DNA of 33,364 nt from Candidatus Omnitrophota bacterium (GTDB lineage: Bacteria > Omnitrophota > Omnitrophia > Omnitrophales > Danuiimicrobiaceae), in the NCBI GenBank assembly GCA_016177155.1, contig JACOVU010000004.1, forward strand, positions 1 to 33,364. Direction: 5' to 3'. Numbering within the stretch: the first letter of the stretch is position 1; every line of letters starts with the position of its first letter. Both the position numbers and the translations under genes were made by a program. The notes under the pieces were generated by a model. That model saw only the letters and a list, made by a program, of their open reading frames with translations, was not told the DNA's origin and did not search any database. Positions 1,702 through 30,826 of this stretch are shown here, one piece after another.

Positions 1702-2631
1702 ATGAAAATTAAAAAGTTCAAAACCCGGACGGTCGAATTAGCCCAATACTTCCTATTCCGCTTGGTTTGTGTGTTCGTGGATCTACTTCCTTTTCGTTTG
1801 GCCTGTTCTTTGGGGAAGTGGATCGGATGCCTTCTTTATCTCGCTCTTGGGCGGTCCAGGGAAGTGGCACTGGAAAACTTAAATCAAGTTTATGGAAATG
1901 AAAAAACCGATTCTGAAATCAAAAAGATTGCCATCCAATCATTCGAAAACTTGGGGATGTTTGCGGTTGAATTCATTCGCATCCCAAAAATTTTAAATCA
2001 GCTGGATCGTTACGTCGTCATTCGAAATGAAGAATCTGTTTTGGAAATGCTCCAGCAGAAAAGAGGTGTCGTTTTAATTGTTTCTCATTTCGGAAATTGG
2101 GAATGGATGGGCGTGACCGCAGGCGCTCGCGCTCAGGAGAAAGGAATTAAAATTAACGCCGTTGCGAGAACGCTTGGGAACCCCTTTCTTTATCGGTATG
2201 TGGTCGAGAAACTTCGTGGGGCAACAGGGCTTCAGACGATGAATAAAAAAGGTGCGGCACGCGAAACCATGAAACGACTTGAGCAGAACGAAATTGTTTG
2301 CATTTTAATCGATCAGCATGAACGGAACGCAAGCGTTCCTGTCCCATACTTTGGAAGGCCTGCTTGGACCACTTCTTTACCTGCGGTTTTGGCCATTCAG
2401 CAAGGCGTTCCGATTATTCCTGTTTTTTCATTTCGACAAAAAAACGGGCCTATGATTGTCGATTTGGGAGAACCGTTTCCGGTCATTGACACCGGTGATT
2501 ATGACCGCGATGTGATCGAAAATACGAAACAATATATGCAGGCGATCGAGCAAGTCGTGAGAAAACGGCCGGGTGATTGGCTTTGGATGCATGCAAGGTG
2601 GCGCGCCTCCCGTACCGAAAAAGTGAGGTAA
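1702..2631 (+). CDS. LpxL/HtrB-type lysophospholipid (lipid A) acyltransferase
   Basis: VVLIVSHFGNWEWMG motif, DQHERNASVPVPYFGRPAWTTSLPA, WLWMHARWR. ATG at 1702 is preferred over GTG 1693 because of its position at the element edge. Confidence 0.87.
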   Translation: MKIKKFKTRTVELAQYFLFRLVCVFVDLLPFRLACSLGKWIGCLLYLALGRSREVALENLNQVYGNEKTDSEIKKIAIQSFENLGMFAVEFIRIPKILNQLDRYVVIRNEESVLEMLQQKRGVVLIVSHFGNWEWMGVTAGARAQEKGIKINAVARTLGNPFLYRYVVEKLRGATGLQTMNKKGAARETMKRLEQNEIVCILIDQHERNASVPVPYFGRPAWTTSLPAVLAIQQGVPIIPVFSFRQKNGPMIVDLGEPFPVIDTGDYDRDVIENTKQYMQAIEQVVRKRPGDWLWMHARWRASRTEKVR

Positions 2632-8198: not shown

Positions 8199-8965
8199 GC
8201 AAGCGAAAACATCATTCTTTTGATGTGGCTCGTTCACTGATCAGTTGGTCCTTTGTTGGCATTGTGACCATTGTATTCTTTTTCCCGGTTTTTCTTACCG
8301 CCGTCATTCTATTCCCGTTTGATAGAAACGTAAAACAGATGCATCCCATAGCCTCTTTGTGGGCAAAAGCCATCTTATTGGTATGCCCCTTGATGCGAAT
8401 CCACGTTGAAGGAGAAGAACATTTAGAGCATGGCAAAACCTATGTATTGGTAGCTAATCATCAAAGCCTTGCTGACATTATCACGGTCCTTCACCTCAAT
8501 CATCCCTTTAAGTTCGTCGCAAAGCAGGAACTATTTTTGATCCCATTTATGGGCTGGGCACTTTGGTTTGCGGGGTATATTCCGCTGATACGAGGAGACC
8601 AAAAAAGCGGAAAAGAAGCTGTTAAACACATGAGCCGCTATTTAAAACATGGCGTCTCCATCCTCTTGTTTCCAGAAGGAACGAGAAGCCGCGACGGAGA
8701 AATTCATGATTTTAAGGTCGGGGCGTTTAAGCTGGCGGTCGAGGAAGGGGTTCCGGTTGTGCCGATTGTGATTCAGGGGACTCGCGATCTCATTCCTAAA
8801 GGGAGTCTTGTGATAGGGGATCGTGTCGAGGTCACCATGAAAGTCGGAAAGCCGCGCCTTTCTTCTCAGAAAGAACCTGGGTCAATTGAATCTTTTTGCC
8901 GAGAAACCCGGACAGAAATGATTGAAACACTGAAGAAACTCCGCACTCAAAGGGGTGGGGGATGA
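8195..8965 (+). CDS. plsC: 1-acyl-sn-glycerol-3-phosphate acyltransferase
   Basis: VANHQSLADIITVL, FPEGTRSRDG, VPIVIQGT: PlsC motifs. Confidence 0.92.
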   Translation: MSKRKHHSFDVARSLISWSFVGIVTIVFFFPVFLTAVILFPFDRNVKQMHPIASLWAKAILLVCPLMRIHVEGEEHLEHGKTYVLVANHQSLADIITVLHLNHPFKFVAKQELFLIPFMGWALWFAGYIPLIRGDQKSGKEAVKHMSRYLKHGVSILLFPEGTRSRDGEIHDFKVGAFKLAVEEGVPVVPIVIQGTRDLIPKGSLVIGDRVEVTMKVGKPRLSSQKEPGSIESFCRETRTEMIETLKKLRTQRGGG

Positions 8966-9070
8966 TCCCCCACCACGGCAAGTCTTGTTAAATTATAGTT
9001 TTCATTACTATAATAGGTTACGTTAGACATAGCAGATGATGTTAAATTTTACGAACTCGGGTGGTGGGGG
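8966..9070. mobile_element. ATGA-flanked palindromic-ended element, copy B (105 bp)
   Basis: Left ATGA 8962-8965 then TCCCCCACCAC; right GTGGTGGGGG then ATGA 9071-9074. Inner ATTATAGT-tttcatt-ACTATAAT. Contains CGTTAGACATAGC (9021-9033), also found at 14979-14991. Confidence 0.72.
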
Positions 9071-10276
9071 ATGAAACGCATCGTGATTGTTCCCGATGGC
9101 GTAGGAGATTGGCCGCTTAAAGAATTAGGCGGAAAAACTCCTCTCGATGTTGCACAAAAACCCAACTTGGATGAACTTTCGCGGAATTCCATTTTGGGGA
9201 CGCTCAAAACTTGTCCCGACGGGATGTATCCTGGAAGCGACGTCTGCGGTCTTTCCTTGATGGGTTATGATCCCAAAGTTGGTTATACGGGGCGCGCCCC
9301 GCTTGAAGCGGCGAACATCGGGATTGTGCTCAAGGCGGGCGAGCTTGCATTTCGATGTAACCTTGTGAATGAAGAAAATGGTATTCTCACTGATTATTCT
9401 GCCGGTCACATTTCAACGGAAGAAGCCGATCTTCTGATTCAAGAACTTCAAAGGAAACTCGGCACAAACCTTATTTCCTTTCATACCGGCAAAATGTACC
9501 GCCACATCATGTGGCATAAGCGCTCAAGTGATCTGGAGGTTCAAACCGATCAGCCTCATGATTTTCAGGGAAGTCCCTATGCCGAGCATTGGCCAAAGGG
9601 TAAGGGAGCTCAGATTCTGGTGGAACTGACTGAGAAGTCTAAAAAGATTTTATTCGATCATCCCGTTAATCGCGAGCGTGTCATAGAAGGGAAGAAACCT
9701 GCTAACATGATTTGGTTTTGGGGTGGCGGCGGAGCACCAAAACTCGAACCCTTTGAGAAAAAATACGGTCTTCGAGGAGGCGTCATCTCTGCGGTGGATT
9801 TGCTCAACGGTCTCGGTCGTTATCTCGAATGGGAAATTATTTCTGTTCCTGGCGCGACGGGTTATTTTGACACCGACTATGCGGCGAAAGGTCGTTATGC
9901 GATCGAAGCGCTCACGCGGCTCGACTTAGTTTTCATCCATGTTGAGGCGACGGATGAGGCAGGGCACGTTGGAAATTATAAAGAAAAAGTTCGAGCGATT
10001 GAAAATCTAGATCGCCATATTGTAGAACCTATTGTCGCTCACTTGAAAAAACTCCCTACTTGGAGACTTTTTGTCGCACCCGACCATTACACCCCCACTG
10101 TTAAAAAGACGCATGTTGCAGAGCCCGTCCCATTTATTTTCGCGGGTTCAGATCTTTCTTGTTCACGTTCCGAGCGGCCCTATACCGAGGCCGACTCAAA
10201 AGCAACCGGAATCGCACTGGACCGCGGTTACGAGCTGATGCTCCGACTGGTCAAAGGTTGGGCGCACTATGGATAA
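9071..10276 (+). CDS. apgM: 2,3-bisphosphoglycerate-independent phosphoglycerate mutase, archaeal (ApgM) type
   Basis: MKRIVIVPDGVGDWPLKELGGKTPLDVAQKPNLDEL; PGSDVCGLSLMGYDP; HVEATDEAGHVGN; APDHYTP. Confidence 0.92.
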   Translation: MKRIVIVPDGVGDWPLKELGGKTPLDVAQKPNLDELSRNSILGTLKTCPDGMYPGSDVCGLSLMGYDPKVGYTGRAPLEAANIGIVLKAGELAFRCNLVNEENGILTDYSAGHISTEEADLLIQELQRKLGTNLISFHTGKMYRHIMWHKRSSDLEVQTDQPHDFQGSPYAEHWPKGKGAQILVELTEKSKKILFDHPVNRERVIEGKKPANMIWFWGGGGAPKLEPFEKKYGLRGGVISAVDLLNGLGRYLEWEIISVPGATGYFDTDYAAKGRYAIEALTRLDLVFIHVEATDEAGHVGNYKEKVRAIENLDRHIVEPIVAHLKKLPTWRLFVAPDHYTPTVKKTHVAEPVPFIFAGSDLSCSRSERPYTEADSKATGIALDRGYELMLRLVKGWAHYG

Positions 10277-12844: not shown

Positions 12845-14251
12845 ATGTGGGAGATCATCGAAGCTAATAAGAGGAAGTCTTTTTTCCTTTTAATCGGGAT
12901 GGGATTTTGTCTCATCACTTTGGGTTACGCGTTGGGTGAAGCTTTCTTTCCTCCCGAGGGCGGGATACTGGGCATTGCCCTGGCTTCGAGCATTTGGTTT
13001 ATCATGTCTCTTGTGAGCTTCTTCTCAGGAGATCAAATTCTTTTGTCGGTCAGCCGCGCTAAGGAAGTAACCCGGGAAATTCATCCACAGCTGTTCAATA
13101 TCGTAGAAGAAATGAAGATTGCAGCCCATCTTCCTGCCATGCCCAGAATTTTCATCATGGACGAAGAAGCTCCAAACGCTTTTGCGACGGGAAGAAAACC
13201 TGAACGAAGCGCTGTAGCGGTTACCACAGGTCTTCTTTCCCGCCTCAATCGTGACGAGCTTCAAGGAGTCATTGCTCATGAAATGTCTCACATCCTGAAT
13301 CGGGACATTTTGTTTATGACGCTGGCAGGCATTATGCTCGGGAGCATCGTGTTGATTTCAGATACATTTTTGAGAGTGAGAATTCGTTCGTCAGGTTCAT
13401 CTCCCAGGTATCGGGCGCGGAGTTCCGGTAGCGGTCAAGCGCAAGCCATCATGTTTTTGGTAGCACTTCTCCTTTTGATTTTGGCGCCGATCGCAGCGCG
13501 CCTGCTTTACTTTGCTCTTTCGAGGAGGAGGGAGTATCTTGCCGATGCGAGTGGAGCGCGTCTCACTCGGTATCCGGAAGGTCTTGCTTCGGCCCTTCAG
13601 AAAATTGCTGATTCCGTGGTCGAGCTTCCTACCGCCAACCGAGTGACCGCTCCTATGTATATTGTGAATCCGTTTGGCGCTCGCTCGATGGGCTTTTCGG
13701 GTTTTCTGAGTACCCATCCGCCCGTTCGTGAACGAATCCAAATTTTGAGAAGTATGGCAGGAGGCGCGAGCTATGCAAGTTACCAAAACGCGTTTGCTTC
13801 CGTGATGGGGAGGCACGTTCCGATTATTCCGCCTTCTGGACTTAAAGATGCGGGTGAAATTTCAGTCCGAAAGCCATCGGTCGAAGAGGCGAAAAAACAA
13901 GATGCAAAGAGCAAAGCGCGCGGCCTTGGGGATTTAACCAGGGTTCTAAATCAATTTGCCTTTTTAACTTGTGTGTGTGGACTCCGGATTAAAGTGCCGC
14001 CTGATTTCAAACAACCCAAAATTGTGTGTCCTAAATGTTTGACTTCGCTCCAGAATCCTTTTCAAGGGCGAGTTCAAGGTGGTGAAAACCTTCCCCAAGA
14101 ATACGTTCGCCAAAGCCACAACTGGGAATCTTTTTCCTGTCGGTGCGGGAAATTGATTCAGTTATCGCCCGCGTTTTCGGGATCGAATGTTGAGTGTACG
14201 AATTGCGGTCAAAAGATCCTCATCGAAAATGCGCTCGCCGTTCCCTCATGA
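12845..14251 (+). CDS. M48 family zinc metalloprotease with two C-terminal zinc ribbons
   Basis: GVIAHEMSHILNRD (HExxH), TM helices, HPPVRERI; C-terminal CVCG...CPKC and CRCG...CTNC. Confidence 0.92.
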   Translation: MWEIIEANKRKSFFLLIGMGFCLITLGYALGEAFFPPEGGILGIALASSIWFIMSLVSFFSGDQILLSVSRAKEVTREIHPQLFNIVEEMKIAAHLPAMPRIFIMDEEAPNAFATGRKPERSAVAVTTGLLSRLNRDELQGVIAHEMSHILNRDILFMTLAGIMLGSIVLISDTFLRVRIRSSGSSPRYRARSSGSGQAQAIMFLVALLLLILAPIAARLLYFALSRRREYLADASGARLTRYPEGLASALQKIADSVVELPTANRVTAPMYIVNPFGARSMGFSGFLSTHPPVRERIQILRSMAGGASYASYQNAFASVMGRHVPIIPPSGLKDAGEISVRKPSVEEAKKQDAKSKARGLGDLTRVLNQFAFLTCVCGLRIKVPPDFKQPKIVCPKCLTSLQNPFQGRVQGGENLPQEYVRQSHNWESFSCRCGKLIQLSPAFSGSNVECTNCGQKILIENALAVPS

Positions 14252-15219
14252 ATCTTAAACATTTCGTCTACCGCCTTGAATATGGATTCGTTCGGTTCAT
14301 GAGCGGATTTTTGGCGCTCCTCCCGTTTTCATTCGCTTTGAAACTCGCTCGACTCCTCGGGCGGTTTTTGTACGTTGTTTTCAGGAAGCCACGAAGGATG
14401 GCGCTTGAAAATTTAAGAGAGGCATTCCAAAGGGAAAAATCGGAACGTGAAGTTCATAGGATTGCACAAGGGGCTTTCATTCATCTTGCGGAATTTGGAA
14501 TCGAATGGCTCAGAATGCCCTACATGATTCAAAACCCTGAGCGGTATTTAATCGAAGTCTACCACAAAGATAAGATTCACAAAGCGCTTCAAGAAAAGAA
14601 GAAAGGAGCTATTGTTTTAATTGGGCATACGGGTAATTGGGAAATTATGGCGCTCATGGGAGGGCTTTTGGTTGCAAAGCCTGTCCAAGTTCCTCTATAC
14701 GCGGTTGCCCGGCCTCTTAAGAATCCTTATCTGTATGACTATGTGATGAAACTTCGTGGGGGGATGGGGCTTAAGACCATCGATAAGTCGGGCGGCGTTC
14801 GTGATACCTTTGACCGTTTGACGAAAGAAAATGCGATCGTTTGCATTTTGGTGGATCAACGTGTCAGCGAGGGCAGTGTCGAAATCAATTTTTTTGGTCG
14901 ACCTGCACTAACCACGAGTCTTCCCGTGGTAGCGGCGCTTCGCCTGGGAACGCCTATTTTCTTCAACTTTCTTTACCCCGTTAGACATAGCGCCCCGCGC
15001 TGCGGGATGTCTAACGGGGTTAACCGAACGTCCCATTATCGTTACGAGATGAAGGTGGAAGGGCCAATTACGATTGAACGAACAGGTGATTTTAAGCGGG
15101 ACATTCAAACGAATACGCAACACTTAATGGATCGGATTGAGCGAGAAATCAGGAAAGATCCTACTCGGTGGCTTTGGATGCACAACCGTTGGCGTGTTGC
15201 CCACGGTGCAAAAGATTGA
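14248..15219 (+). CDS. LpxL/HtrB-type acyltransferase, paralogue of 1702-2631, with an in-frame palindrome insertion
   Basis: AIVLIGHTGNWEIMA, FFGRPALTTSLPV, WLWMHNRWR. ATG 14248 overlaps the upstream TGA (ATGA). Confidence 0.87.
   Translation: MNLKHFVYRLEYGFVRFMSGFLALLPFSFALKLARLLGRFLYVVFRKPRRMALENLREAFQREKSEREVHRIAQGAFIHLAEFGIEWLRMPYMIQNPERYLIEVYHKDKIHKALQEKKKGAIVLIGHTGNWEIMALMGGLLVAKPVQVPLYAVARPLKNPYLYDYVMKLRGGMGLKTIDKSGGVRDTFDRLTKENAIVCILVDQRVSEGSVEINFFGRPALTTSLPVVAALRLGTPIFFNFLYPVRHSAPRCGMSNGVNRTSHYRYEMKVEGPITIERTGDFKRDIQTNTQHLMDRIEREIRKDPTRWLWMHNRWRVAHGAKD
14973..15022. repeat. in-frame palindromic element inside the acyltransferase gene
   Basis: ACCCCGTTAGACAT (14975-14988) / ATGTCTAACGGGGT (15007-15020) perfect 14 bp; inner CCCGC-gct-GCGGG. 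Half copy at about 30799-30826. Confidence 0.85.
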
Positions 15220-15241: not shown

Positions 15242-15380
15242 ATGATAATCAGGGCGGCACTTTTAGGCGTTCCGGAACGCCTAAAAGTACTGTCCTGATT
15301 TCCGATAAATAAACGAACTTCTATTTTAATGATAATCAGGGCGGCGCACTTGCCGCAAAGCAGCAAGTACAGCCTTGGAG
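15242..15380. repeat. tandem pair of palindromic repeats sharing ATGATAATCAGGGCGGC
   Basis: 17 nt direct repeat at 15242-15258 and 15329-15345. Copy 1 has a 30 bp perfect palindrome ACTTTTAGGCGTTCCGGAACGCCTAAAAGT (15259-15288); copy 2 has ACTTGC...GCAAGT (15348-15368). Confidence 0.8.
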
Positions 15381-30784: not shown

Positions 30785-30798
30785 TTGAATCTTCGCAC

Positions 30799-30826
30799 GC
30801 CGCGCTACGGGATGTCTAACGGGGTA
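30799..30826. repeat. half copy of the CCCCGTTAGACAT palindrome
   Basis: CGCGCTACGGGATGTCTAACGGGGTAA nearly matches CGCGCTGCGGGATGTCTAACGGGGTTA at about 14996-15022. Confidence 0.75.

Follow-up and report, generated by a model that had tools for sequence, protein, structure and literature searches.

The window analysed here, 33,364 nucleotides from a draft genome of Candidatus Omnitrophota, contains a lipid-A-type acyltransferase gene that carries an in-frame palindromic insert adding 16 codons. We are confident, though short of certain, that this insert is a non-autonomous, MITE-like mobile palindrome which duplicates 4 bp of its target, is translated when it lies in genes, and is tolerated in this protein at a beta-hairpin turn. 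Until now most reports of protein-coding mobile palindromes have come from Rickettsia and Wolbachia. Since members of the same family also lie in frame within housekeeping genes across many uncultivated bacteria, the phenomenon is far more widespread than those two genera.

The insert and its host gene

The full 44-bp palindrome, CCCCGTTAGACATAGCGCCCCGCGCTGCGGGATGTCTAACGGGG, occupies positions 14976-15019 (CCCCGTTAGACAT...ATGTCTAACGGGG), with TTTA on its left and TTAA on its right (Table 1). Its outer arms match perfectly over 13 bp and the corresponding RNA is predicted to fold at about -29 kcal/mol. Across the insert the acyltransferase frame reads FLY-PVRHSAPRCGMSNGVN-RTS. A preliminary description had proposed a palindrome of about 48 nt lying in frame in this gene and adding 16 codons. 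The in-frame position and the 16 codons were confirmed and the bounds refined; the insert is indeed 48 bp, but the palindrome itself accounts for only 44 of these, the remainder being the 4-bp target duplication, which in this copy is imperfect (one mismatch). The source assembly has a single exact copy of the 44-bp sequence, along with other members of the general family.

Table 1. Positions in the window of the palindrome, its flanks, its host gene and related features
Feature	Position	Strand	Basis
Host gene, PF03279 lipid-A-type acyltransferase, LpxL/HtrB-like	14248..15219	+	ORF calls; Pfam; fold
Left copy of 4-bp target duplication, TTTA	14972..14975	.	Sequence; family-wide 4-bp duplication
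44-bp mobile palindrome with CCCCGTTAGA and TCTAACGGGG ends around a variable interior	14976..15019	.	Sequence, family search
Right copy of target duplication, TTAA (3/4 bases as in TTTA)	15020..15023	.	Sequence, family duplication
16 inserted codons, PVRHSAPRCGMSNGVN	14977..15024	+	Orthologue protein alignments and orthologue DNA
Intergenic truncated relative lacking the left arm: right arm and a portion of a similar interior	30796..30825	+	
Paralogous acyltransferase without insert, for comparison	1702..2631	+	ORF calls, alignment

The gene more likely starts at the ATG at 14248 than at a GTG at 14194, and its frame is open to 15219. The Pfam PF03279 match (E 2.5e-39) spans the insert. An AlphaFold2 model of the protein, built from a family alignment (mean pLDDT 87.5), has the acyltransferases PatA and LpxM as structural matches. 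In this model pLDDT falls below 50 solely at residues 248-261, which belong to the insert, and at the C-terminus, and the insert is flanked by strands 237-245 and 265-271. The prediction puts the insert at a beta-hairpin turn, modelled with low confidence, that forms a surface loop, the kind of position about which the preliminary description had raised the question. With a source genome that is a draft of 147 contigs, 86% complete, a pseudogene or an assembly artefact might be suspected. This we find scarcely credible, since the frame is uninterrupted over 341 codons, H127 and E132 of the acyltransferase motif are retained in the insert-bearing protein, and the same behaviour is seen for essential genes across many independent assemblies. 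We infer that the insert is near-neutral for enzyme function.

Comparison with orthologues established the empty site. Three same-genus orthologues and a same-order relative have no extra residues at this position, the junctions reading FLY/RT, FLH/RT, FLY/RS or SLP/RG; identity to the same-genus orthologues is 63-66%. More distant relatives likewise lack the 16 residues, as does the paralogue at 1702-2631, whose lack of them had been noted earlier and was upheld by alignment. These comparisons give an insert of 48 bp, made up of the 44-bp palindrome and 4 bp more. An orthologue with the peptide but without the palindrome would have refuted the original proposal; in the palindrome-free orthologues, compared as both protein and DNA, the peptide is missing too. 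A fourth same-genus orthologue (L178, genome G001) carries a different, unrelated in-frame palindrome in the same loop, ATCACCCTCC...CCCCAAAATGGGGG..., encoding approximately ITLHHPPPKMGEGEE, so this loop has served as an insertion site on more than one occasion. Palindromes of the type CTCCCCC/GGGGGAG, similar to this second insert, are found elsewhere in the genus and suggest a second family of coding palindromes.

The window contains one further relative, the intergenic truncated copy, in which 17/17 bases of the right arm (30809-30825) follow a similar interior sequence; the half copy described near 30799-30826 is thus real. A supposed fragment at 9021-9033 did not survive scrutiny: it is a mere 13-base match without significance. 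A 12-base arm with up to two mismatches is found at five sites in the window, the true arms included, against 1.6 expected, and 4/100 shuffles reach five; since arm-like sites occur near chance frequency, the fragment was not counted. An Rfam search of the window returned tRNAs only. A further near-perfect palindrome, 54 bp long (AATCAGGGCGGCACTTTTAGGCGTTCC with its complement), lies just downstream of the acyltransferase at 15247-15300, with a second, partial left arm at 15324-15345, and the intergenic stretch 8954-9074 contains GGTGGGGGATGA repeats and a GGTGGGGGATGATCCCCCACCAC palindrome.

Ends, target duplication and distribution of the family

Members of the family share fixed 10-bp inverted ends, CCCCGTTAGA/TCTAACGGGG, around a variable interior that differs greatly between copies. 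Their lengths run between 23 and about 140 bp and include classes of 29, 31-33, 47-50 and 59 bp, the commonest being 29 bp. A search for the ends with any interior found three copies in the source assembly and six in a same-genus genome. Copies were present in 24 of 191 genomes drawn from Omnitrophota, with a maximum of 12 per genome; a reversed control pattern gave zero matches in the paired-arm searches.

The variability of the interiors might be taken to mean that the palindrome and its peptide arose locally in the gene, for instance by template-switch expansion, with the family resemblance being convergent. However, when one genome per species was scanned, the same ends were found at no fewer than 119 loci, as against about 0.4 expected by chance in 264 Gb. 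Such recurrence, together with the 4-bp duplication that accompanies the ends and the clean empty site in the orthologues, leaves a local origin with almost nothing to recommend it. The matches listed fall in Omnitrophota, many Patescibacteria lineages, Nitrospirota, Thermodesulfobacteriota, Planctomycetota, Myxococcota, Elusimicrobiota and Pseudomonadota, with one record from an Aenigmatarchaeota (a DPANN archaeon); the phylum counts, like the scan total of at least 119 loci, are lower bounds. No Rickettsia locus is among the matches listed, and the window's host belongs to Omnitrophota, the phylum of Candidatus Velamenicoccus. The distribution is patchy, the element being present in 7 of 191 genomes sampled around a Nealsonbacteria carrier. 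Nearly all of these data come from metagenome assemblies. In the literature searched, which did not cover subscription papers, we found no description of the element sequence or its peptide.

A target duplication is demonstrated across the family. The flanking 4 bp are identical in 96 of 163 distinct copies, whereas shuffling the right flanks gave 23 on average and never more than 42; 5-bp identity is rare (three of the 163 copies) and 3-bp identity is not above chance. The duplicated site is mostly TNNA (TTTA, TAAA, TGAA, TTCA, TCAA or TTGA). Off-consensus sites (CAAG, TGAG, CGAG, TATG, TGGG and CTCA) also agree on both sides, so the target duplication is 4 bp, and this disfavours a 2-bp duplication within a fixed T..A context. 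Our proposed mechanism is that the element inserts at TNNA-like sites, duplicating 4 bp, and that 44+4 = 48 bp would have entered the acyltransferase gene codon-in-phase at a length-tolerant beta-hairpin turn. Fixed inverted ends and a 4-bp duplication point to a staggered-cut transposase, which we infer would act in trans on the non-autonomous element with a 4-bp stagger.

Reading frame and peptides of in-gene copies

The tendency of in-gene copies to preserve the reading frame was established by two tests. Among 209 elements with at least 3/4 duplicated bases, length+4 is divisible by three in 50/50 that lie in long ORFs, compared with 63/159 of the others. In a stricter test the element and one duplicate were removed in silico and only insertions whose empty site fell within an ORF of 200 codons or more were counted as in-gene. 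By this measure 42/43 in-gene insertions keep the frame and add no stop, while 70/163 elsewhere are multiples of three (Fisher p 2.7e-12). The result holds without G195, the most copy-rich genome (23/24 in frame versus 59/131; p 2.1e-6).

These counts bear on the idea that the hairpin is skipped, either in the RNA or by the ribosome, as a small intron-like or translational-bypass element, and that the peptide is never made. Bypass elements can be hairpins with short direct repeats at their flanks, and members of this family are likewise hairpins, with a stable fold, between short direct repeats. Excised or bypassed DNA, however, need not keep the frame or avoid stops, as 42/43 in-gene copies do, nor would skipping account for a bias in G195 toward the sense strand that encodes hydrophilic peptides (see below). 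We consider skipping very unlikely, and that the insert is translated we infer from its frame, the absence of stops and the identity of the gene, with no transcript or proteome data to hand.

Because the element ends are fixed, the inserted peptides recur in a few forms, N/Y/H/D-PVR...SNG-V or T-PLE/PLD...LTG-F. The ends are open in two of the three phases (PVR...SNG or PLE...LTG) provided that length+4 is a multiple of three, and it is because they read open at the right lengths that in-gene copies may survive as short hydrophilic inserts. Frame-shifting copies would be purged, and hence seen only outside long genes. The hosts are demonstrably conserved housekeeping genes, among them uvrA, clpB, topA, alaS, pyrG and ligA in G195, a member of Nealsonbacteria, and infB, pnp, polA, uvrC and mutM in other Patescibacteria, with the corresponding family models aligning across the insert. 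A family that has defined ends and a defined 4-bp target duplication, ranges over many uncultivated phyla and lies in essential genes opens three questions to testing: how proteins gain peptides from mobile DNA, why such inserts are tolerated, and which enzyme moves them. It also carries a warning for annotation, in that NPVRNxxSNGV-like inserts in candidate-phylum proteins are transposon-derived.

The 59-bp class of G195 (63 bp net, 21 codons) lies almost entirely in ORFs. Wherever such a copy sits in a long ORF the purine-rich strand is the sense strand, giving hydrophilic peptides; amelioration after insertion could add to this purine bias. Three 58-bp relatives in the same genome lie outside long ORFs, and three of its genes (L234, L228 and L244) each contain two separate in-frame 59-bp copies. 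Variability by codon position in the 59-bp class did not clearly single out any amino acids as constrained; the inserts thus give the impression of being tolerated, not conserved, and we make no claim that a specific peptide is under selection. When the interiors of six 59-bp copies were compared with shuffles, they showed no greater structure. In the source assembly, a second in-frame insert, a 101-bp family element, lies near the start of a 331-codon ORF (L007:680-1672) with weak similarity to type IV pilins.

Known palindromic elements and candidate enzymes

The preliminary description had likened the insert to the Rickettsia palindromic elements (RPEs). RPEs and their Wolbachia counterparts (WPEs) are dispersed palindromes that occur between genes and, in frame, within conserved protein genes unrelated to one another (PMC10969869, PMC2229807). 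RPEs measure about 105-150 bp, occur in metabolic genes, have a target duplication marked as unknown and are described as Rickettsia-specific (PMC2229807, PMC10969869). The present family resembles both in lying in frame in protein genes as well as in spacers, but it is shorter (often 29-59 bp), and it has invariant ends, a 4-bp TNNA duplication and hosts in many phyla. The proposal that a dispersed palindrome became coding in the RPE manner is supported by the peptide-free orthologues, by the sister elements in frame elsewhere and by the position of the insert in a loop; identity as an RPE is not, given the differences in size, target duplication and host range. By analogy, and without a sequence comparison with RPE families, we term the family RPE-like, RPEs being its closest analogue.

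Some prokaryotic MITEs (Correia/NEMIS, RUP, ERIC and YPAL among the families) fuse in frame to ORFs, and most of those catalogued have TA motifs at their ends (PMC2229807). Our family shares with MITEs its terminal inverted repeats, a target duplication, small size and the lack of a transposase of its own; it differs in its 4-bp TNNA duplications, in having fully palindromic minimal forms and in that no parent insertion sequence was found. The family satisfies the general MITE definition in every respect but one, since no parent element is known. We looked for a full-length element by requiring matching ends with identical duplications at a spacing of 0.5-8 kb; in about 78% of G195, 81% of the Velamenicoccus genome G089 (40 kb of that masked) and the other loci examined, this yielded only pairings of separate short copies.

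REP elements are known as extragenic repeats and are not known to carry target duplications, nor is Y1 transposition known to yield one. Spread of a REP-type palindrome by an IS200-like Y1 (RAYT) transposase might nevertheless be entertained: like REP and BIME sequences, the family consists of dispersed hairpins, in those systems of 20-60 bp, GTTAG occurs in the arm, and Y1_Tnp genes are present in 10/11 element-rich genomes searched. They are present also in 5/10 element-free genomes and absent from element-bearing G004, and those that could be examined in G195 and G089 are not flanked by the element. Together with the clear 4-bp duplication and the frequent intragenic position of the family, this makes a RAYT origin improbable, if somewhat less so than skipping, and we retain the MITE-like reading.

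No mobilising enzyme was found for the family among those tested (PF01797, PF13701 and PF01609), and co-occurrence with none of the three accounts for the carriers. A derivative of IS1380/piggyBac type was rejected because the PF13701 transposase is missing from all element-rich genomes searched, and one of IS4/IS5 type because PF01609 has no match in G195, G191, G292, G175, G089, G004 or G000. A fuller reading would be of one family, spanning bacteria and DPANN archaea, adapted to life inside genes, with a coding-tuned 59+4 subfamily and an unknown transposase of 4-bp stagger. It would take in the two-phase ends, the frame-keeping lengths, the hydrophilic sense strand in some genomes and the repeated colonisation of housekeeping genes; as a whole we offer it tentatively, as a conjecture that falls somewhat short of being probable.

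Two further observations concern related elements. A sister palindrome, CCCCGTTACAAATnnnATTTGTAACGGGG, with CCCG on both sides, is present in three copies in G089, at 856503, 1109941 and 1395425. Additionally, three IMG/VR contigs classed as viral (L054, L055 and L056) carry one copy of the element whose duplication reads TTCA, or TGAA on the opposite strand, and such contigs are a possible vehicle for its spread.
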